This document shows, piece after piece, positions 298-53,263 of a stretch of DNA of 64,000 nucleotides. The notes beneath the pieces were generated by a model, which was not told the origin of the DNA, made no database searches, and saw nothing but the letters and a program-made list of their open reading frames with translations. Source of the stretch: Alphaproteobacteria bacterium (GTDB taxonomy: Bacteria > Pseudomonadota > Alphaproteobacteria > Micropepsales > Micropepsaceae). The stretch lies in contig JANXXU010000027.1 of NCBI GenBank assembly GCA_025350465.1, forward strand, positions 1 to 64,000, read 5' to 3'. Both the position numbers and the translations under genes were made by a program. Every line of letters begins with the position of its first letter. Within the stretch, counting starts at the first letter, position 1.

Positions 298-1440
298 TCA
301 GTCGTTCAATTTCCAGACCATTTCCGAGGATTGGGAACCGGTTTGGGCGGCGCGGCAATTCTCGAATTCCTGAAACACTTCGATAAGGTCGGAACCTTCT
401 AGGGCGCCGATCTCGCCGCGTTTGCATTTGAATTCCCAAAAGCTCGACACATGACTGACGACGCCCGCCGTCTCGCCGATTTCGAGAAACATCGCGGGCG
501 ATTTGAGCAGGAACTCCTTGAACGCCGAGGGCTTTTTTTCGACCGTCATGGTCTTGTAGGCGGTGTCGTAGAAGTTGAGCAGGTTGTGCATCGTCTTCAT
601 TTTCTCTTTCAGCATACCGACCGTGCGCGTGCGCATGTTTTTGACCGTCGCGACGGACATGGCATCGCAATTGGCAAAGCTGATACGCTGCATCTGCTCC
701 AACGTGGTCGCGGTCTTGGCCAAAATCTTATTGAACATCCATTTGTAATAAAGAAATCCCTTCCAGCAAAACACGCCGTCCGCCCATTCGGCGCCGTCCA
801 GACCCAACGCCGCTTTCAACGGCGCCAAGCTGTCGGCGTTCTCGTCCGACATGATCTTGGAGGCCATCTGCGCGCCCAGCTCTTTGGAGGCGCCGCTTTT
901 CTCATTGCCCGCGAACGCCATCTGGATGAGGCCGTTGACCTGCTCGCTGACGAAAGCCTGCATGCTGTTCAGGTCGGCGTCGGAAATCTGGAAATAGCAC
1001 CGCGCGGGATCGCGGTTCATCAATCTCAGCTGTTCGCGCAGCAGAAACGGATCAAGGGAGGGAAGTTTGTCGAGCGCGATCAGGAGCTCGGCGTCCTTTT
1101 GCAACTCGCTTGCATCCTTATAGCCGCCTGCCAGATCTTGCAGAGCGCCTTCGAAATTCTTCTGGCCGACGAAGATGTTCGTGCCGCCGATGTTCAGATC
1201 GTCTTTGGCGAGCGGCAAGATCACCTTGGTCACGCTGGGCTTGAGCGATTCGAATAGGTAACGGTCGGCGCCGCGCACCGCGTGCTTCATGATCAAGGCG
1301 CGGTTCAAGGCCTTGCTGAAGAAGAACGGCTTGGCGTTGAAGGGCTCGGTCGTGCCGAAACGCTCGTGCACCACATGCAAGTTGAGGATGCGCGACGTCG
1401 ATCCCGACTTCTTGATCAAGGCAAGACTGCGAAACGTCAC
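298..1440 (-). CDS. Uncharacterised 380-aa protein
   Basis: I do not recognise this family. The frame opens with GTG at 1440 and runs uninterrupted to TGA at 298; an in-frame ATG at about residue 51 is a possible later start. The protein has no signal peptide and no obvious membrane segment. It is rich in Lys, Met and Phe, with scattered cysteines that form no metal-binding pattern, and looks like a soluble, largely helical cytoplasmic protein. It lies 140 bp downstream of cysA on the same strand, with a weak hairpin between, so it could be read through from the sulfate operon or be independent. The length and lack of a competing frame make it a probable real gene; its function is unknown. 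Confidence 0.65.
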   Translation of the reverse strand: MTFRSLALIKKSGSTSRILNLHVVHERFGTTEPFNAKPFFFSKALNRALIMKHAVRGADRYLFESLKPSVTKVILPLAKDDLNIGGTNIFVGQKNFEGALQDLAGGYKDASELQKDAELLIALDKLPSLDPFLLREQLRLMNRDPARCYFQISDADLNSMQAFVSEQVNGLIQMAFAGNEKSGASKELGAQMASKIMSDENADSLAPLKAALGLDGAEWADGVFCWKGFLYYKWMFNKILAKTATTLEQMQRISFANCDAMSVATVKNMRTRTVGMLKEKMKTMHNLLNFYDTAYKTMTVEKKPSAFKEFLLKSPAMFLEIGETAGVVSHVSSFWEFKCKRGEIGALEGSDLIEVFQEFENCRAAQTGSQSSEMVWKLND

Positions 1441-1579: not shown

Positions 1580-2329
1580 CTAGATCCCGCTGCCTTGGGC
1601 GTGGCTGGGCGTGTCGTCCAGGAAGTCGCGCACGAAGGGGGTCGCCGGGGTCTCGCGCAGCTCGCGCGCCGTGCCGACCTGTTCGATGCGGCCCGCGTTC
1701 ATGATGGCGACGCGGTCGGCGAGGGCGAGCGCCTCCTCCTGGTCGTGGGTCACCATGATCGTGGTCAGCTTCATCTCGTCGTGCAGCGTGCGCAACCATT
1801 GGCGCAAGCCCTTGCGCACTTTGGCGTCGAGCGCGCCGAAGGGTTCGTCGAGGAGCAGAATGCGCGGCTCGATCGCGAGTGCGCGGGCGAGCGCCACGCG
1901 CTGGCGCTGGCCGCCGGAGAGCTGGCTCGGGTAGCGCGCGCCCATGTCCTCGAGCTGCATGCGGGCGAGGAGCGCCTGCACGCGGCGTTTGATCTCGCGC
2001 GCCGGGGGCCTCGTGCTCGACGGGCGCACGTCGAGGCCGAAGGCGATGTTCTGCGCCACCGTCATGTGGCGAAACAGAGCGTAGTTCTGAAAGACGAAAC
2101 CGACACGGCGTTCGCGCGCCGGCGTCAGGGTCATGTCCTGCGCGTCGAAGCGCAGCTGCCCCTCTTCGGGCACGTCGAGGCCGCCGACGACGCGCAACAG
2201 CGTCGTCTTGCCCGAGCCCGACGGCCCGAGCAACGCCAGGAACTCGCCGGGCGCCACGATCAGACTGACGGACTGAACAGCCGGGAAGGCGCCGAAGCGC
2301 TTCGTTACGCGGTCGATCTCCAAGGCCAT
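1580..2329 (-). CDS. cysA: Sulfate/thiosulfate ABC transporter ATP-binding protein CysA (short form)
   Basis: This is the ATPase that powers sulfate/thiosulfate import with CysT and CysW. Visible motifs are Walker A GPSGSGKT (residues 35-42), the Q-loop at about Q81, the ABC signature LSGGQ (137-141), Walker B ending LLLDEP (D161, E162) and the switch histidine in MVTHD (H195). I chose the ATG at 2329 because it begins the usual N-terminus of the family and lies 26 nt past the cysW stop codon, behind a GGGGGAAG stretch. A longer frame back to 2398 would overlap cysW. The product is 249 aa, whereas CysA proteins are commonly about 340-365 aa, so the C-terminal regulatory (TOBE-like) region is missing. 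It is the last gene of the sulfate operon. Confidence 0.9.
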
Positions 2330-2355
2330 GCGTCGTACGTCTTCCCCCAAACCCG

Positions 2356-3222
2356 TCAGTGTCGATGCGATGCGGCGATCTCTTCCCCATAGTGCCACTC
2401 GAGCGCACTCTTCAGGACGAGCGTCACCAGCGCCAGCAGCGCCAGAAGCGAGGCGACCGCAAAGGCCGCCGCGAAATTATATTCGTTGTAGAGAATCTCG
2501 ACATGCAACGGCATCGTGTTGGTCAGCCCGCGGATGTGGCCCGAGACCACGGAAACCGCGCCGAACTCGCCCATCGCCCGCGCGTTGCACAGCAAAACGC
2601 CATAGAGCAGCGCCCAGCGCACATTGGGCAGCGTCACGTTCCAAAAGGTCTGCCAGCCCGAGGCGCCGAGCGAGATGGCGGCTTCTTCCTCGCTGACCCC
2701 TTGTTCCTGCATCAACGGGATGAGTTCGCGCGCGACGAAAGGGAAGGTCACGAACATCGTCGCCAGGACCAGCCCGGCGGTCGTGAAGATGATCTTGATG
2801 CCGAGCGCGTCGAGCGTTGGGCCCAGGAAGCCGTGCGCGCCGAACAAGAGCACGTAGACGAGCCCTGAAATCACCGGCGAGACGGAGAATGGCAGGTCGA
2901 TCAACGTGATCAGCAGGCTCTTGCCTTTGAAGTCGTGCTTGGCGATCGCCCAGGCGGCGGCGAGCCCGAAGAGGCTGTTGAGCGGCACGGCGATGCCGGC
3001 GACGATGAAGGTGAGCTTCACCGCGGCGAGCGCATCCTTCTCGACGATCGCGTTGAGGAAGGCATCGACGCCGTTGCGAAAGCCCTCGGTGAAGACGGCG
3101 ATCAGCGGCGTGAAGAGAAAGAGCGAGATGTAGAGAACGGCGACGCTCACCAGCACGACGCGCGTGGCGAAACTTTCGCGCGTGGGCGGATGAAATTCTT
3201 TGCGCGGCGGGCTGGCGGTCAT
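2356..3222 (-). CDS. cysW: Sulfate ABC transporter permease CysW
   Basis: This is one of the two inner-membrane subunits that form the sulfate channel. The 288-aa protein has about six hydrophobic segments, starting with a long one at residues 20-45. The cytoplasmic EAA loop that docks on CysA is seen as [17 protein letters not shown]. An N-terminal run rich in Pro, Arg and Lys precedes the first segment. The gene lies between cysT and cysA, and a 229-bp gap containing a cruciform repeat separates it from cysT. The ATG at 3222 has only a weak purine-rich sequence upstream, so translation may depend on the upstream structure. The match to CysW is strong; substrate choice between sulfate and thiosulfate cannot be told from sequence. 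Confidence 0.92.
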
Positions 3223-3451: not shown

Positions 3452-4297
3452 TCATGTGCTGCGCGCCCGGGCCCAGGCTTGCAGCGTGTTGATGGCGAGC
3501 AGCATGGCGAATGAGATCGCCAGCATCGCCGCGCCGACGGCCGCCGCGCCCGCGTAGTCGAACTGCTCGAGCTTGATGACGATGAGAAGCGGCGTGATCT
3601 CGGAAATGAACGGCATGTTGCCGGCGATGAAGATGACCGAGCCGTACTCGCCCACCGCGCGCGCGAAGGCGAGAGCGATGCCGGTGAGCCAGGCCGGCAA
3701 GATCGTCGGGAAGACGACGCGGCGGAAGGCTTGGCCGCGCGTCGCACCGAGCGTCGCCGCCGCTTCCTCGTACTCGCGGTCGAGGTCGTCGAGCACCGGC
3801 TGGACGGAACGCACGACGAATGGCAAGCCGATGAAGGTCAACGCCACCACGATGCCGAGCGGGGTGAAAGCGACGTGGATGCCGAACGGCGCCAGTGCGC
3901 TGCCGATCCAGCCGTTCGGCGCATAGAGCGTCGTCAGGGCGATGCCGGCAACCGCCGTCGGCAAGGCGAACGGGAGGTCGACCAGCGCATCGACGATCCG
4001 CTTTCCCGGAAATCTGTAGCGCACCAACACCCAGGCGACGATCAAACCGAAGACGCCGTTGATGGCGCTGGCGATCGCGGCCGCGCCGAAGCTGAGCTTG
4101 AGCGAGGCAACAACGCGCGGCGCGCTCACCGCATCGATGACGCCGGCGACGCCCAGCTCCCACGGCCGGATCAACAAAGCGGCGAGGGGAATGAGGACGA
4201 TCGCGCTCAGGTAGAACACGGTAAAGCCGAACGTGAGCCCGAATCCCGGCATCACGCTCGGCCGCTTGAACCTCCAGGGGCGCGTCGCTGCGCTCAC
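3452..4297 (-). CDS. cysT: Sulfate ABC transporter permease CysT (CysU)
   Basis: This is the partner permease of CysW in sulfate import. The 281-aa protein has six predicted membrane segments, starting near residues 18-45, and an EAA-type ATPase-docking loop read as YEEAAATLGATRGQAF. The start is a GTG at 4297 that directly follows the TAG of the sulfate-binding protein gene, an arrangement that implies translational coupling. The order binding protein, CysT, CysW, CysA is the classical one. Downstream of its stop codon the operon is interrupted by the palindromic repeat at 3257-3430. Confidence 0.92.
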   Translation of the reverse strand: MSAATRPWRFKRPSVMPGFGLTFGFTVFYLSAIVLIPLAALLIRPWELGVAGVIDAVSAPRVVASLKLSFGAAAIASAINGVFGLIVAWVLVRYRFPGKRIVDALVDLPFALPTAVAGIALTTLYAPNGWIGSALAPFGIHVAFTPLGIVVALTFIGLPFVVRSVQPVLDDLDREYEEAAATLGATRGQAFRRVVFPTILPAWLTGIALAFARAVGEYGSVIFIAGNMPFISEITPLLIVIKLEQFDYAGAAAVGAAMLAISFAMLLAINTLQAWARARST

Positions 4298-5320
4298 CTA
4301 TTTACCCGGCTGATAAATCTGATCGAAGACGCCGCCGTCGGTAAAATGCGTCTTCTGCGCCTTCTGCCAGCCGCCGAAAACCTGATCGACCGTGACGAGC
4401 GAGATTTTCGGAAACTTGGCGCTGTACTGTGCCGCTACCGCCGGATCGGTGGGGCGATAGAAGTTCAGCGCGATGATCTCTTGCGCCGGCCTCGTATAGA
4501 GGAATTTGAGATAAGCCTCGGCCACAGCGCGCGTGCCGTGCTTGTCGGCGTTCTTGTCGACGAGCGCGACCGGGGGCTCGGCGAGAATGCTCAGCGACGG
4601 ATTGACGATCTGAAGTTTGTCGGGCCCGAGTTCCTTGAGCGCCAGATAAGCTTCGTTCTCCCAGGCGATCAGCACGTCGCCGAGGCCGCGCTGCACGAAC
4701 GTCGTCGTCGAGCCGCGCGCGCCGGAGTCGAGCACCGGCACGTTCTTGTAAAGCCTGGTGACGAAGGCCTTTGCGGTCTCATCGTTGCCGCCGGGCTGGC
4801 GCAAGGCATAGGCCCATGCCGCCAGATAATTCCACCGCGCACCGCCCGAGGTCTTCGGGTTGGGCGTGATGACTTGAATGCCGGGCTTGATCAGATCGTT
4901 CCAATCCTTGATCTGCCAAGGATTTCCCTTGCGCACCAGGAAGACGATCGTGGAGGTGTAGGGCGACGAGTTGTTGGGCAAGCGCGACTGCCAATTGGCC
5001 GGCAGCAGGCCGCCGCGCGCCGATATCTCGTCAATGTCGTAAGCGAGCGCGAGGGTCACGACGTCGGCTTCCAGGCCGTCGATCACCGAGCGCGCTTGTT
5101 TGCCCGAGCCGCCGTGGCTTTGGCTGATGGTGACGGTGTCGTGGGTCTTGGCCTTGTAATCCGCCGCGAACGCCTTGTTGATCGCGTCGTAGAGCTCGCG
5201 CGTCGGATCGTAGGAGACGTTGAGTAGCGCGATGTCTTTGGCCAACACGACTTGTGCGAACAGGAATAGGAAGGCTGCGGTCGCTAGCGCATAGCCGGCA
5301 AAACGAGAGCGTGTTGTCAT
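4298..5320 (-). CDS. sbp: Periplasmic sulfate-binding protein (Sbp/CysP type)
   Basis: This protein captures sulfate in the periplasm and delivers it to CysT/CysW. The 340-aa precursor starts with a Sec signal peptide (basic start, hydrophobic core to about residue 27, cleavage after VVLA). The mature N-terminus carries the family hallmark [13 protein letters not shown]. Further characteristic stretches are [20 protein letters not shown] and [17 protein letters not shown]. The ATG is preceded by GGAG at a 7-nt spacing. It lies 39 nt after the porin gene and abuts cysT. Sbp and CysP paralogues differ in preference for sulfate or thiosulfate, which cannot be separated here. Confidence 0.93.
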
Positions 5321-5359: not shown

Positions 5360-7021
5360 CTAGAAACCGACCTGCGCGCGCAACGCGATCGCTTGCACGG
5401 TCTGGTTAGCGTCGACCGTGGGGATCGCCGGCACGCCGGTCGTCGTCGTCGTGACGCCGGTGATCGCGTTCGGGGTCGCGCCCGATCGCAGGCGATCGAT
5501 CTCGATCCACTGATAGTCGAGGGCAAAACGCACGGCTTCGTTCGGATACCAATTGAGGCCCAAGGTAAACGCCTTCTGCTCACCGCCGCGAACGGTGTTG
5601 TAGAACGTGTAGGTGCGCGTCGTGGGCCCGGTCCACGCCGTGATTACGCTCGCGGGGTCGCTCTCGGTGTCGTTCAGATTCAAATCGCTGTAGCGGGCCG
5701 CAAGTTCCCACGCGCCCCAGCCGGAACCGTCGAGTGTGAAAGGGTGATCGGGCTTGGGTGGGGTAAACGCGGCGGTCGTCGGGTTGTAGCCTTTGTTTTC
5801 GCCGGTCAGGACCCAACTCGCCTGCACGTACCAGCCGTTGAAGCTGTTGTTCGCCGGCTGGACGACCTGCGTGACGCTCGTCGAGGAACTGGTGAAGACC
5901 TTGTAGGCGACGGGTGCACGATCGACCTCGAAATCGTAGTAGCCGGCTTGGGCGTAGAGATTCTCGAAATTGGCGGCACTCTCAGCGCCCCATTGCGTGA
6001 CGTGATTGGCGGGGAGAGACGTCGTGTTGGCGAGCCTGATGCCGTTCGCGTCGACGGTGAGTTCGGGGGGATCGGAAAGCGTGAAGCTGTTGAGGGCCGC
6101 CGCGCCCGGCGTCGTGCTCAGGTCCGGCGCGCCGTTGGCAACGGCATCGGGCAACGAGATGATGTACGTGCCGTTGCCGCCCACGATCCAATGCGCGTCG
6201 TCGGCGTTGTAGACGAGATATGACGCGCGTCCGAGCAAGGCTTGCTGTTCGTCGAAGACGGCGCCGTCCTGAACTTTGCCCCCGGTGTACGAGAGAGCGC
6301 CAAACAGGCGGTCGCCGGCGTACAACGCCGTGAACGCATCGCGCCCATCGCCGCCGGCGATGTTGCGCTGGAGGTCGGAGGGCGCATTGCGCTCGAGGAA
6401 GAGCGTATCGCCGGCCGAGGTGCCGTCTTCGATGTTGGCGGGCGGGGGATAAGCGCCGGCGCGCACCGCAAACGGCTTCAGACCGTCATATTGCAGATAG
6501 ACCGATTGAATATGGCCTGGCGTTTCCGTGCCGCCGCTGCCGCCGAAATCGTAGTTGAAGTTGTAAGACCAGTCGCCGAAGAGCTTGCCTTGGATGCCCA
6601 GATAGACGCGGCGGAAATTCGCGCCGCTCGACAGGTCGGGACCGTAGGCCGCGGGCAGCGTCGCCGCCGAAACGTCTTGCGAATAGTAGGCGGCATCGAA
6701 CTGGCCGAGCACGCGAATTTGGGCGCTGAACTTGCCGTCCGCCGATTCGAAGGTCGGCCGGCCGTTCTTGATCGAGGATTTCGGGCTCTCGGCCACCTGG
6801 CGCTGGGTGTCGGCATATTGATTGGACGACGAGGTCTTCACGTCTTGGATCTGAGCGGTCAGCACGTCTAGCTGTTGCTGCTGCGCGGCGATTTGTTTCT
6901 TGAGTGCCTCGACCTGGGCTTGGAGTTCTTCACGCGTACCGGCCAACGCGGGGCAAGCACCCATAAGCGTGACCGCCATTGCGATCAAAGAGACGCTGTA
7001 GAGAAATGAAGATTTGCGCAT
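5360..7021 (-). CDS. OprP/OprO-like outer-membrane porin
   Basis: This is a likely anion-uptake porin. The 553-aa precursor has a signal peptide (cleaved near PALA at about residue 27), then a short coiled coil of Glu/Gln/Leu heptads (about residues 30-65), then a long alternating beta-strand region ending in a C-terminal Phe, as expected for a barrel assembled by BAM. The opening of the barrel (GRPTFESADGKFSAQIRVLG) is typical of the phosphate-selective porin O/P family. The ATG has a strong GAGGAGG upstream. As first gene of the sulfate operon it probably passes sulfate rather than phosphate; that is inference from position. The palindromic promoter lies just upstream. Confidence 0.85.
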   Translation of the reverse strand: MRKSSFLYSVSLIAMAVTLMGACPALAGTREELQAQVEALKKQIAAQQQQLDVLTAQIQDVKTSSSNQYADTQRQVAESPKSSIKNGRPTFESADGKFSAQIRVLGQFDAAYYSQDVSAATLPAAYGPDLSSGANFRRVYLGIQGKLFGDWSYNFNYDFGGSGGTETPGHIQSVYLQYDGLKPFAVRAGAYPPPANIEDGTSAGDTLFLERNAPSDLQRNIAGGDGRDAFTALYAGDRLFGALSYTGGKVQDGAVFDEQQALLGRASYLVYNADDAHWIVGGNGTYIISLPDAVANGAPDLSTTPGAAALNSFTLSDPPELTVDANGIRLANTTSLPANHVTQWGAESAANFENLYAQAGYYDFEVDRAPVAYKVFTSSSTSVTQVVQPANNSFNGWYVQASWVLTGENKGYNPTTAAFTPPKPDHPFTLDGSGWGAWELAARYSDLNLNDTESDPASVITAWTGPTTRTYTFYNTVRGGEQKAFTLGLNWYPNEAVRFALDYQWIEIDRLRSGATPNAITGVTTTTTGVPAIPTVDANQTVQAIALRAQVGF

Positions 7022-7079: not shown

Positions 7080-7136
7080 AAACGATTACTCTAAATCTCT
7101 ATCTAGTCAATAGAGATTAGGTAGTATAAATCGTTT
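7080..7136 (-). promoter_or_regulatory. Nested palindromic operator/promoter of the porin-sulfate operon
   Basis: An AT-rich island in GC-rich DNA holds two inverted repeats with almost the same centre. The outer pair is AAACGATT (7080-7087) and AATCGTTT (7129-7136); the inner pair is AATCTCTAT (7094-7102) and ATAGAGATT (7110-7118) with a 7-nt spacer. On the minus strand the spacer contains TTGACT, a good -35 hexamer, with TAATCG 16 nt on as a weak -10. A repressor bound here would block initiation. The Rrf2-family gene next door is the obvious candidate to bind. Confidence 0.65.
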
Positions 7137-7248: not shown

Positions 7249-7686
7249 TTAAGCAGCGGGCCGGATTTTGCGGCGGTCGGCGAGCGCATCGGCGAGCGAG
7301 TGCTGCTCCAAAATCTTTGCCGTCGAATTGCGCACGTCGATCAAGGATTTGCGGATGGCGCAGGTTGTTTCGTCGGTGCAGTCTTCGCAGCGGCGGTACG
7401 CCGTTGCACTTGCGCAGGGGCTGAGCGCCAGCGGCCCGTCGATCGAGCGGATGATCTCGGCAAAGCTGATCTCTTTTGTCGCTCGACCGAGACGATAGCC
7501 GCCGCTGCGACCGCGCAGGCTGTGCACAAGACCGCGCTTCTTCAACTCCAACAGAATCTGCTCGAGAAACTTGCGCGGCACATTGCTCGCGTCGGCAATG
7601 CCGGCGATCTGCTGCGGTTCGTCCTTCGGTTGCGTCGCCAAATGGAGCATGGCGCGGAGCGCGTAACGGGCTTTTTGCGAGAGCAT
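7249..7686 (-). CDS. Rrf2-family transcriptional regulator
   Basis: This 145-aa winged-helix regulator belongs to the family that includes IscR, RirA and CymR. The N-terminal opening MLSQKARYALRAMLHLA and the RKFLEQILLELKKRGLVHSLRGRSGGY-like recognition region are typical (split here: RKFLEQILLELKKRG, then SLRGRSGGYRL). Four cysteines, C91, C100, C103 and C109, lie where Fe-S-binding members hold their cluster, with spacing CX8CX2CX5C that differs from IscR. It is immediately upstream of the sulfate operon on the same strand, 227 bp away. A cysteine/sulfur-status or Fe-S sensor that represses sulfate uptake is the likely role; iron sensing is the alternative. Confidence 0.85.
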   Translation of the reverse strand: MLSQKARYALRAMLHLATQPKDEPQQIAGIADASNVPRKFLEQILLELKKRGLVHSLRGRSGGYRLGRATKEISFAEIIRSIDGPLALSPCASATAYRRCEDCTDETTCAIRKSLIDVRNSTAKILEQHSLADALADRRKIRPAA

Positions 7687-7715
7687 GTCGCGTGACTTGA
7701 TCGAGTCGCTAGGGT

Positions 7716-7744
7716 TTTACACGGTAACACGTGATTTGGGCCAA
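7716..7744 (-). promoter_or_regulatory. Candidate promoter of the Rrf2 regulator gene
   Basis: On the minus strand TTGGCC (7739-7744) and TGTAAA (7716-7721) are separated by 17 nt, leaving a leader of roughly 22 nt before the ATG at 7686. The spacer contains a short inverted repeat, CACG...CGTG. The hexamers match consensus only moderately. Confidence 0.35.
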
Positions 7745-7787: not shown

Positions 7788-7924
7788 CTTTCCTCCCCCG
7801 CGGTTGCGGGGGAGGTGCGCGAGGCAAAGCCGAGAGCGGAGGGGGAAAGTGGCGCGTGCTCACACACTCCCCCTCCGACCTCGCTGCGCTTGGCCACCTC
7901 CCCCGTGAGAACGGGGGAGGAAAG
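7788..7924. repeat. Cruciform intergenic repeat, copy 2
   Basis: This 137-bp element has the same architecture as copy 1 but lies in the opposite orientation: outer arms CTTTCCTCC / GGAGGAAAG, two hairpins built on CCTCCCCCG / CGGGGGAGG at either end, and a central GGAGGGGG / CCCCCTCC pairing. It fills the space between the thrC stop codon and the Rrf2 promoter and ends 3 bp before the thrC stop. It could act as the thrC transcript's 3'-end structure. Confidence 0.8.
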
Positions 7925-7926
7925 AG

Positions 7927-9165
7927 TCATAGCGCTCTAAAATCGATCGCTTTGGTTAGGTCGAGCCGGCGCGTCATGGGCGGTAATTCGTATTTGAGGC
8001 CGCTCGCGCAGTTGAAGAGCACCACGCGGTCGCTCGGCGAAATCTTTCCTTCGGCCAAAGCCTTGCGATAGGCGGCATATGTCGCGGCACCTTCCGGGCA
8101 CATCAAAAGGCCATCCTTGTGCGCGACCTCTTCGCGCGCTTCGATGATCGCTTCGTCGTCGACGGCGATGGCGAAACCACCGCTGTCGCGCACGGCCTGA
8201 AGGATGAGGAAATCGCCGATCGCCTGCGGTACGCGGATGCCCATCGCTACGGTCGAGGCGTTCTGCCAGCGCGTCGCGTGCGTTTGACCTTGGAGGAAGG
8301 CCTTCACCATCGGCGCGCAGCCCGACGCTTGCACCGCCACCATGCGCGGACGCTTGGCACCGATGAAGCCCGCGGCCTCAAGCTCGGCGAACGCTTTCCA
8401 CATGCCGATCAATCCGGTGCCGCCGCCGGTGGGATAGAAGATCGCGTCGGGCACTTCCCAATCGAGCTGTTCGGCGAGCTCGAGCCCCATCGTCTTCTTG
8501 CCCTCGATGCGATAGGGCTCCTTTAGCGTCGAGCACTCGAACCAGCCGCGCGCCTCGCGCCCTTGGGCAACCAGTTTTCCGCAGTCGTCGATCAGGCCGT
8601 TGACGCGATAGACGGTCGCGCCTTGCGCTTCGATCTCGCGCACGTTGATCTCGGGCGTATCGTCGGGACAAAAGATCGTCGCCTTGATGCGGGCGCGGGC
8701 GCAATAAGCGGCGAGCGCGGCGCCGGCGTTGCCGTTCGTCGGCATCGCTGTTTCCTTGATGCCGAACGCTTTCATCATCGATACCGCGAGGGCGACGCCG
8801 CGCGCTTTGAACGAGCCGGTCGGCAAGCGGCTTTCGTCCTTGACCAGGAGTTCGCCGGCACCCAGTGCGCTTTGCTTCAGCCGGATGAGCGGCGTGAGAA
8901 CCTCACCCAGGCTGACGATGTCGCTCGCCTTGCGCACCGGCAGGAATTCCCGGTAGCGCCAGATGTCGTGCTGCCGGCGGCTCAGCTCGTCCTTCGACAG
9001 CGCCTTGCCGATGGCGGCCAGGTCATAGCGCACGAGCAGCGGCTTGCCCGCGCGCGAGAGGTTGGCGATGCGGTCCGCCTCGTAGCGTTCGCCCGTCGCC
9101 GAGCACTCCAAATGTGTGACGAATGTCGGACGTTCGGCGGAGAGATTGTCGGCGCCTATGGACAT
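7927..9165 (-). CDS. thrC: Threonine synthase
   Basis: A PLP enzyme that turns O-phosphohomoserine into threonine plus phosphate. The 412-aa sequence has the fold-type II PLP motif GSFKARG with the Schiff-base lysine at K120. The asparagine loop is PTNGNAGAALAAYC, and a glycine-rich phosphate cup is read as PTGGGTGLIG. An N-terminal segment with a CSATG motif precedes the catalytic core, as in the longer threonine synthases. The ATG at 9165 faces murJ across a 98-bp divergent promoter region. It has no biosynthetic partner gene nearby. Threonine dehydratase-like or cysteate synthase-like enzymes are the main alternatives, but length and motifs favour ThrC. Confidence 0.88.
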   Translation of the reverse strand: MSIGADNLSAERPTFVTHLECSATGERYEADRIANLSRAGKPLLVRYDLAAIGKALSKDELSRRQHDIWRYREFLPVRKASDIVSLGEVLTPLIRLKQSALGAGELLVKDESRLPTGSFKARGVALAVSMMKAFGIKETAMPTNGNAGAALAAYCARARIKATIFCPDDTPEINVREIEAQGATVYRVNGLIDDCGKLVAQGREARGWFECSTLKEPYRIEGKKTMGLELAEQLDWEVPDAIFYPTGGGTGLIGMWKAFAELEAAGFIGAKRPRMVAVQASGCAPMVKAFLQGQTHATRWQNASTVAMGIRVPQAIGDFLILQAVRDSGGFAIAVDDEAIIEAREEVAHKDGLLMCPEGAATYAAYRKALAEGKISPSDRVVLFNCASGLKYELPPMTRRLDLTKAIDFRAL

Positions 9166-50809: not shown

Positions 50810-53263
50810 ATGTATCGTTTTTTCGCGTACACGCTGGGCGCGATCGCGGTTCTCTTCATTTCGGTCTCCGCGGGCGTCGCGCTTTATCTTTATAAGCTCA
50901 GTCAGGATTTGCCTGCGTATGGCTCGCTGGCAAACTACCAGCCGCCTGTCACAACGCGCGTTTACGGCAACGACGGCTCGCTGATCGCTGAGTACGCACG
51001 CGAGCGGCGCCTCTTCGTCCCGATCGAAGCAATTCCGCGCCGCGTCATCGACGCGTTTCTGTCGGCCGAAGACAAAGATTTCTACTCTCACCCCGGCGTC
51101 GATTTTTACGGTGTCATGCGCGCCGGCATTTCGAACTTAGAGGGATATATGCAGGGCGCGAACCATCGCCCTGAAGGCGCATCGACGATCACGCAGCAGG
51201 TGGCGAAGAATTTCCTTCTGTCGAGCGAAGTCAGCCTTGAGCGCAAGATCAAAGAATGGATGCTCGCCTTTCGACTTGAGAGTGCCTACACGAAGGACAA
51301 GATCCTCGAACTCTATCTGAACGAAATCTTCCTGGGCTCGAATTCCTATGGCGTCGCGGCGGCAGCCTATAACTACTTTGACAAATCGCTCGACCAACTG
51401 ACGGTGGCTGAGGTCGCCTATCTTGCCGGCCTTCCGAAGGCGCCTAGCAACTATCATCCGGTGCATAATAAGCAGCGCGCGATCGAGCGGCGGAATTACG
51501 TGATCGATCGCATGGCGGAAAACAACTTCATTAGCGCCGAGGATGCCGACAAGGCGAAGAATGAAGACCTGATCCCACACTTCCGGCCGGCGGGCGCGCA
51601 ATCGCCCGACGCGCAATTCTTCGCCGAGGAAATTCGCCGCTGGATCCAACAGAACTACGGCGACCAGGCGCTCTATGACGGTGGTCTCGCGGTTCGCTCG
51701 ACCTTTGACCCGCGCCTGCAGCGTATCGGCACCCAAGCACTGCGAGACGGACTTGTCGCCTACGACGTTCGCCACGGCTATCGCGGGCCGGTATCTCACC
51801 TCGATCTCGCCAGCAATTGGCAAAAGGCCTTGGGCGACATGCCGGCGCTTGCCGATGTCACCGAATGGAAGCTTGCGGTCGTGACGGGTTTTGCCCCGAC
51901 CGATGCGGTCAAGATCGCTTTTGCCGACGGCACAGAGGGCCGCATCACATTCGCTCAACTGAAGTGGGCGCGGAAATACATCAAAGAAGAAGCCCTCGGA
52001 CCCGAGCCAAAGAAGTGCACGGACGTTTTGGCGACGGGTGACGTCGTCTACGTGCAGGCGCTGCTTGCAGCGACGGACGGATCCACCAAAGGGCAATTCG
52101 CGCTTCGCCAAGTGCCCAAGCTCAACGGCGGCCTGATCGCCATGGACCCTCAGACGGGGCGCGTCCTGGCGTTGGTGGGCGGCTTTAGTTTCTACGCCAG
52201 TGAGTTCGACCGCGCGTGGCAAGCCATGCGCCAGACAGGTTCCTCGTTCAAGCCGATCGTCTACGCGGCGGCTCTGGATTCCGGCTATACGCCGTCCAGC
52301 ATTGTGCTCGACGCTCCGTTCGTGGCCAGCCAGGGCGTCGGTTTGCCGATGTGGCGACCTGAAAACTACGACGAAAATTACGCCGGCCCGGCAACCCTGA
52401 GATCAGGTCTAGAGCACTCCCGCAACTTGATGACCGTTCGTATCGCCGCCGATATCGGCATGGAGAAAGTCGCCGATTACGCGCACAGATTCGGCATTGC
52501 CGATCACATGCTGCCGGTCCTTGCGAACGCGCTCGGTTCGACTGAAACGACGCTCAACCGTATGGCTGCTGCATATTCGACGTTCGTGAACGGCGGGAAG
52601 CGCGTGATCCCGGCGCTCGTAGATCGGATTCAAGATCGCAATGGCAAGACCATATTCCGCCAAGACAAGCGCCTCTGCGAGGGCTGCAACGCGCAAGCTT
52701 GGGCCAATCAAGATGAGCCTTTGATCGCGGGCAATGCAGAAGAAATTCTGGATTCGCGGACCGCTTATCAGATCGTGCATATGCTCGAAGGTGTTGTGGA
52801 GCGCGGCACAGCCATGGTCGTCAAGGACGTGGGCGTTCCTCTTGCCGGCAAAACCGGTACTACGAACGACTTCAAAGATGCCTGGTTCATGGGATTCTCG
52901 CCAAATTTGACAGTTGGTGTCTATGTCGGCTTCGACGAACCGGCGTCGATGGGCCATGGCGAAACCGGCGGCCACAACGCGGCGCCGATCTTTCGCGATT
53001 TCATGAAAGCGGCCATCGGCAACCAACCTGCCGTGCCGTTCCGCGTCCCGTCCGGCGTGCGCATGGTACGCGTCGACCTGAAGAGCGGCCGCCCGGTCAA
53101 CGAAGGTGGCATCATGGAAGCCTTCAAAGCAGGCACAGAACCGGGCTCCGGCTATGTCGCGCGTGGCGAAATGGGGGGCGGAACGGCCGACGGGTCTACC
53201 GAGGAAGACCCCAATGCGCCCGCTCAACAGGGGCAAACCTCGGGGGCTTGGGGCCTTTATTAG
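50810..53263 (+). CDS. mrcA: Penicillin-binding protein 1A
   Basis: A bifunctional peptidoglycan synthase of 817 aa. It has a single N-terminal membrane anchor (residues 5-27), a GT51 glycosyltransferase domain with catalytic E87 in SAEDKDFYSHPGVD and the STITQQVAKNFLL block, an OB-like insert, and a transpeptidase domain with SSFK (S478, K481), an SRN-like motif in HSRN, and KTG (K681). The C-terminal Gly/Ala-rich tail is disordered. It lies between the amidase gene and prfB. Confidence 0.96.
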   Translation: MYRFFAYTLGAIAVLFISVSAGVALYLYKLSQDLPAYGSLANYQPPVTTRVYGNDGSLIAEYARERRLFVPIEAIPRRVIDAFLSAEDKDFYSHPGVDFYGVMRAGISNLEGYMQGANHRPEGASTITQQVAKNFLLSSEVSLERKIKEWMLAFRLESAYTKDKILELYLNEIFLGSNSYGVAAAAYNYFDKSLDQLTVAEVAYLAGLPKAPSNYHPVHNKQRAIERRNYVIDRMAENNFISAEDADKAKNEDLIPHFRPAGAQSPDAQFFAEEIRRWIQQNYGDQALYDGGLAVRSTFDPRLQRIGTQALRDGLVAYDVRHGYRGPVSHLDLASNWQKALGDMPALADVTEWKLAVVTGFAPTDAVKIAFADGTEGRITFAQLKWARKYIKEEALGPEPKKCTDVLATGDVVYVQALLAATDGSTKGQFALRQVPKLNGGLIAMDPQTGRVLALVGGFSFYASEFDRAWQAMRQTGSSFKPIVYAAALDSGYTPSSIVLDAPFVASQGVGLPMWRPENYDENYAGPATLRSGLEHSRNLMTVRIAADIGMEKVADYAHRFGIADHMLPVLANALGSTETTLNRMAAAYSTFVNGGKRVIPALVDRIQDRNGKTIFRQDKRLCEGCNAQAWANQDEPLIAGNAEEILDSRTAYQIVHMLEGVVERGTAMVVKDVGVPLAGKTGTTNDFKDAWFMGFSPNLTVGVYVGFDEPASMGHGETGGHNAAPIFRDFMKAAIGNQPAVPFRVPSGVRMVRVDLKSGRPVNEGGIMEAFKAGTEPGSGYVARGEMGGGTADGSTEEDPNAPAQQGQTSGAWGLY

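Follow-up and report, generated by a model that had tools for sequence, protein, structure and literature searches.

A putative 25-bp operator of an adjacent Rrf2-family regulator at the promoter of a sulfate-import operon in an alphaproteobacterial order

Described Rrf2-type regulators and the present locus

Control of sulfur genes by Rrf2-family proteins is known in kind from CymR, the repressor of cysteine metabolism in Bacillus subtilis and Staphylococcus aureus. According to the accessible parts of two published accounts, CymR carries no Fe-S cluster and, in B. subtilis, works with CysK (PMC9338935, PMC3828012). The locus analysed here is contained in a window (the whole 64,000-nucleotide stretch of DNA under study) from a 4.06-Mb genome (52 contigs), and encodes an Rrf2 protein that shares the CymR fold and is proposed, by analogy, to control sulfur acquisition as CymR does. 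The two differ in that the aligned stretch of CymR (2y75) lacks the four-cysteine loop of the protein described here, and in that CymR is a broad regulator, whereas the present type is associated with one main operon per genome.

Three other systems offer points of comparison. IscR of Rhodobacter sphaeroides is, like the one proposed here, an alphaproteobacterial Rrf2 repressor, and its sites (Iron-Rhodo-box) overlap the -35/-10 region or lie very close to it; the available text of that study describes a 19-bp palindrome, iron genes, and cluster ligation involving a single cysteine (PMC4618611), whereas the present system has a 25-bp palindrome, sulfate genes, and four cysteines. NsrR of Streptomyces coelicolor, as outlined in the accessible part of PMC9338935, binds as one dimer to a 23-bp, partly palindromic site and has a small regulon that includes its own gene, but it is an NO sensor. 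A Rhodococcus Rrf2 protein has likewise been assigned to sulfur assimilation; this assignment is based on annotation and proteomics only, and the available portion of the source gives neither an operator nor a link to sulfur genes (PMC8557817). In the open-licence literature searched, no paper describing control of sulfate import by an alphaproteobacterial Rrf2 protein was found, which does not prove that none exists, and neither the 25-bp operator nor the cysteine arrangement was found described.

The operon, its regulator, and the inverted repeats

On the minus strand of the window, rrf2 is followed by the genes for an outer-membrane porin, a sulfate-binding protein, and the CysT, CysW, and CysA components of an ABC transporter (Table 1). 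A 380-aa open frame after cysA (298-1440, minus strand) has no match in Pfam or NCBIfam. The source genome has two further Rrf2-type genes, and such a gene, 39% identical, is located on the same contig just past the window (G000:C6:68244-68522).

Table 1. Positions of the genes and predicted regulatory features in the window
Feature	Position	Strand	Remarks
CysA-type ATPase	1580..2398	-	TIGR00968 above cut-off
CysW permease	2356..3222	-	TIGR02140 above cut-off
CysT permease	3452..4297	-	TIGR02139 above cut-off
Sulfate ABC transporter substrate-binding protein	4298..5320	-	NF008022, 522.5 bits (cut-off 288)
Outer-membrane porin, first gene of the operon	5360..7021	-	PF07396, O/P type
Outer inverted repeat	7080..7136 (arms 7080-7087 and 7129-7136)	.	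Real, unconserved, excluded from the putative operator
-10 position, predicted by homology	7083..7088	-	16 nt after TTGACT; TAATCG here, a poor match
25-bp putative operator AATCTCTATTGACTAGATAGAGATT	7094..7118	-	10/12 dyad pairs; conserved core
Predicted -35 hexamer TTGACT	7105..7110	-	Centre of the putative operator; TTGA invariant in 15/15 aligned sites
Rrf2-family regulator	7249..7686	-	Cys91/100/103/109; proposed repressor
Weak operator-like site	7693..7717	-	Its end is 6 bp from the ATG of rrf2; candidate for autoregulation

The regulator belongs to the Rrf2 superfamily (PF02082, 133.5 bits, cut-off 30; TIGR00738, 120.6 bits, cut-off 73.3). Its AF2 model (pLDDT 83.3) has the Rrf2 winged-helix fold and is nearest to IscR of T. 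potens and CymR of B. subtilis, the best PDB match being 4cic and the second 2y75 (E ~3e-9). The protein scored below the equivalog cut-offs for CymR (NF047409, 74.4 bits vs 195) and IscR (TIGR02010, 87.4 vs 207.55), and below the cut-offs for RirA (NF008886, 75.2 vs 193) and NsrR (NF008240, 67.6 vs 182). Its cysteines, arranged as C-x8-C-x2-C-x5-C, are invariant in all 19 aligned relatives and do not match the three-cysteine cluster motif of IscR, which in Escherichia coli has the spacing C-x5-C-x5-C. Of the internal parts of the AF2 model, the cysteine loop has the lowest confidence (block mean of 55 for residues 91-100), and the model is therefore uninformative on metal binding.

Both inverted repeats are situated between rrf2 and the porin gene. 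The inner arms, AATCTCTAT (7094-7102) and ATAGAGATT (7110-7118), are separated by a 7-nt spacer (7103-7109) and centred at 7106, and the outer arms, AAACGATT (7080-7087) and AATCGTTT (7129-7136), are centred at 7108. The preliminary description of this DNA, which reported two perfect and nearly concentric repeats in an AT-rich patch, was thus accurate on both points, the GC content of 7080-7136 being 28% as against 61% for the whole window. It also reported a four-cysteine Rrf2 regulator approximately 110 bp away, and the encoded protein indeed has exactly four cysteines, the 3' end of its gene being 113 bp away. The motif TTGACT, which had been placed within the inner spacer, has five of its bases there, while its first T is part of the inner arm.

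Neither of the two repeats stands out in 64 kb when only the number of such repeats is considered. The window contains 23 inner-type repeats (9-bp arms, spacer of 0-20), as against an average of 13.5 over 60 first-order Markov resamples; the corresponding figures are 1 and 1.3 for AT-rich ones, and 32 and 32.2 for outer-type repeats (8-bp arms, spacer of 35-48). The significance of the inner repeat lies in its conservation and not in its count. It forms the core of a 25-bp site with the operon-strand consensus AATCTCTATTGACTnnRTAGAGATT. The 15-row alignment shows no variation at positions 7-12 (TATTGA) or at position 18 (T), and both arms are conserved over most of their length. The leave-one-out score of this site is 41.4 bits, compared with 13.2 for the next distinct place in the window, and in the source genome it matches sequence model R1 with an E-value of 3.1e-5, the next-best match having 0.68.

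Judging from the sequence, the palindrome has the predicted -35 hexamer, TTGACT, at its centre, and the earlier claim that the palindrome spans the -35 of the sulfate porin operon holds. Of 21 other loci, which lie at unequal distances from one another, at least 10 have TAnnnT exactly 16 nt after TTGACT; at this spacing the window has TAATCG, a poor -10, which speaks against the proposed operator. The palindrome covers the -35 hexamer and most of the -35/-10 spacer, and is therefore placed where a repressor would be expected to bind.

Recurrence of the site across the order

Relatives of the locus were collected by protein searches with Rrf2, the sulfate-binding protein (Sbp), and the porin, and their intergenic stretches were then inspected. 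Within the family, the same site recurs between rrf2 and the porin or Sbp genes. When 61 genomes were searched for the pattern with as many as 3 mismatches allowed, matches with 0-1 mismatch occurred at the rrf2-porin locus only (in G000, G005, G007, G009, G010, G026, G031, G032, and G033). The 15 aligned sites from which model R1 was derived necessarily match it, and the order-wide search with this model adds genomes outside that set. The preliminary description had proposed looking for the palindrome before orthologous operons, and the outcome is favourable: matches at E ≤ 0.05 were found in 51 of the 96 genomes searched for the order, and 47 of the 56 matches precede a porin or sulfate-binding-protein gene, the other 9 being elsewhere. 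Several of the named loci duplicate genomes of the order-wide set (e.g. L117 and G102 are one genome) and do not form an independent sample. No such site was found near more distant Rrf2 relatives, namely at the rrf2 loci of Sphingomonas, Caulobacter, and Azospirillum.

The occurrence of the site follows that of the Rrf2 orthologue. A match is present in 50 of the 71 genomes with an orthologue (defined at E ≤ 1e-30, G081 with 39% identity and E 5.9e-21 being counted among those without) vs 1 of the 25 genomes without (Fisher p 2.6e-9, uncorrected for kinship). Thus, 50 of the 51 genomes with a match also have the orthologue, and in the exception, G096, a contig end is located just upstream of the site. 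Most genomes that lack the orthologue also lack the operon, and the association is therefore partly due to linkage. Among the 21 orthologue-positive genomes without a listed match, 10 of the 12 rrf2 loci fetched carry a site of at least 19 bits, and the remaining nine genomes, represented by shorter loci only, include some with diverged sites and some with none. In five genomes with rrf2 at another location (G034, G067, G084, G085, and G103), the site has nevertheless remained at the operon or its porin gene.

A weaker, diverged copy of the site is found a short way upstream of rrf2 in many orthologues, including that of the window (Table 1). Among distinct places in the 64-kb window, the copy there ranks second when scored directionally and third when scored symmetrically. 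At least 10 bits were reached in 10 of 27 rrf2 upstream regions, vs an average of 0.14 with mirrored column-permuted matrices, and in 15 of the 27 the best match of at least 6 bits falls at -45 to -15 (permuted mean, 0.22); in both comparisons, none of 300 permuted matrices reached the observed number. When 162 control pieces from these loci were scored, 1 reached 10 bits. A strong site occupies the position before rrf2 at three named rrf2-cys loci (L128, L135, and L155, two of which are from Dongia mobilis). The weaker copy suggests autoregulation of rrf2. Elsewhere in the window, 50885-50909, TATCTTTATAAGCTCAGTCAGGATT, has the second-highest symmetric operator score (16.4) among distinct places. 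The region between rrf2 and the threonine synthase gene (7790-7930) contains GC-rich inverted repeats, CCTCCCCC...GGGGGAGG, which resemble a dispersed intergenic repeat, similar stretches being present near some other loci.

The indications of a wider regulon are weak, because the 9 off-operon matches in 96 genomes compare with approximately 5 expected by chance at E ≤ 0.05 and the model E-values are rough; only those linked to sulfur are suggestive. Off-operon sites are located upstream of genes for an O-acetylhomoserine sulfhydrylase in G105 (NF004650, 791.5 bits, cut-off 667) and a TauE/SafE permease in G019, and the others include sites at genes for an NMT1-like binding protein (G104), a second porin (G074), and DUF1684, DUF1254, and PstS-like proteins. 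Sites before CmcJ/NvfI-type oxidoreductase genes were observed in two complete genomes (G105 C1:98144, L292; G104 C1:4263793, L289), the family being scored for the G105 protein. Both genes are located approximately 5 kb or less from a second, ~50%-identical Rrf2 paralogue, which may represent another regulator that prefers the same kind of site. Among distant Rrf2 relatives, that of Rhodobacter sp. YIM 73028 (L185) adjoins a TauE/SafE permease gene and that of Pedobacter metabolipauper (L187) a tetrapyrrole methylase gene, neighbourhoods suggesting that the Rrf2 subfamily may have a broader role connected with sulfur.

In the source genome, neither model R1 nor pattern searches revealed a second convincing site, and a candidate at C11:41741 was rejected as it lies between convergent genes. 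A scan of 30 PF01507 loci (CysD/CysH type, sulfate activation/reduction) gave no comparable site at promoter positions; a weak match recurring in many of them lies within coding sequence and was discarded. A broad regulon was rejected on these two grounds, i.e. the lack of a second convincing site in the source genome and of a site at PF01507 promoters.

Proposed regulation and alternative explanations

The preliminary description had proposed an operator on the -35 through which the neighbouring Rrf2 protein exerts sulfur control, and conservation of the site at orthologous operons supports this. We consider it highly probable, on comparative sequence evidence, that the 25-bp palindrome serves as operator for the adjacent Rrf2 protein, by which sulfate import and, weakly, the regulator's own gene are repressed. 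One Rrf2 dimer, the stoichiometry that we infer, would bind the palindrome and cover the -35 hexamer and the -35/-10 spacer. When reduced sulfur is sufficient, Rrf2 would keep RNA polymerase off the porin-sbp-cysTWA promoter; when sulfur is short, it would leave the site, and the outer-membrane porin and the sulfate ABC importer would be made. At the weaker site before rrf2, the protein may limit its own synthesis. Repression under sulfur sufficiency is the most likely direction, given the position of the putative operator and the analogy with CymR. The four invariant cysteines could plausibly form a thiol, metal, or Fe-S site that reads the signal; alternatively, the signal may come through a partner such as CysK.

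Binding of the palindrome by a different regulator, either another Rrf2 paralogue of the IscR/RirA type or a LysR-type activator such as CysB, is unlikely. The two further Rrf2-type genes of the source genome would provide candidates, and the motifs of IscR and CymR are reportedly similar, as stated in the accessible part of PMC3828012. However, no site was found in genomes that have only weaker-scoring Rrf2 paralogues and no orthologue (e.g. G001, G004, and G006), so that the paralogues do not explain the site, and a position over the core promoter suits a repressor and not a LysR-type activator.

Still less probable is the arrangement originally put forward, a dimer-of-dimers operator in which the nested inner and outer repeats are both bound. 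An 8-bp outer repeat this nearly concentric with the inner one has a P of ~0.002 in flank shuffles, a post hoc value, but only the inner palindrome is conserved: the outer repeat is missing from all 21 other loci (themselves unequally distant from one another), where the best complementary run at its position is 2-5 bp. In addition, the structurally known NsrR operator is, according to the available text of PMC9338935, a 23-bp site for one dimer. The outer repeat is either private to the source genome or a coincidence.

A conserved promoter or RNA hairpin without any regulator deserves almost no credence: TTGACT and a -10 at 16 nt account for part of the conservation, but both palindrome arms are conserved beyond the -35, a similar palindrome recurs upstream of rrf2, and, as it contains the -35, the site would not be transcribed from this promoter.

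Beyond the single operator-regulator pair, we propose, much more tentatively, that the Rrf2 subfamily with the C-x8-C-x2-C-x5-C arrangement may be a dedicated repressor of sulfate import in this order, in which a metal, Fe-S, or thiol switch at these cysteines would sense sulfur sufficiency, and one type of 25-bp operator, arranged around the -35, would serve to couple the porin, the ABC importer, and the level of the regulator itself. For an alphaproteobacterial order that is largely uncultured, the locus provides a precisely defined candidate operator and regulator of sulfate uptake, together with a four-cysteine Rrf2 subfamily whose member in the window passes no NCBIfam equivalog. It allows a direct test of whether sulfate import is gated by Fe-S or cysteine status.
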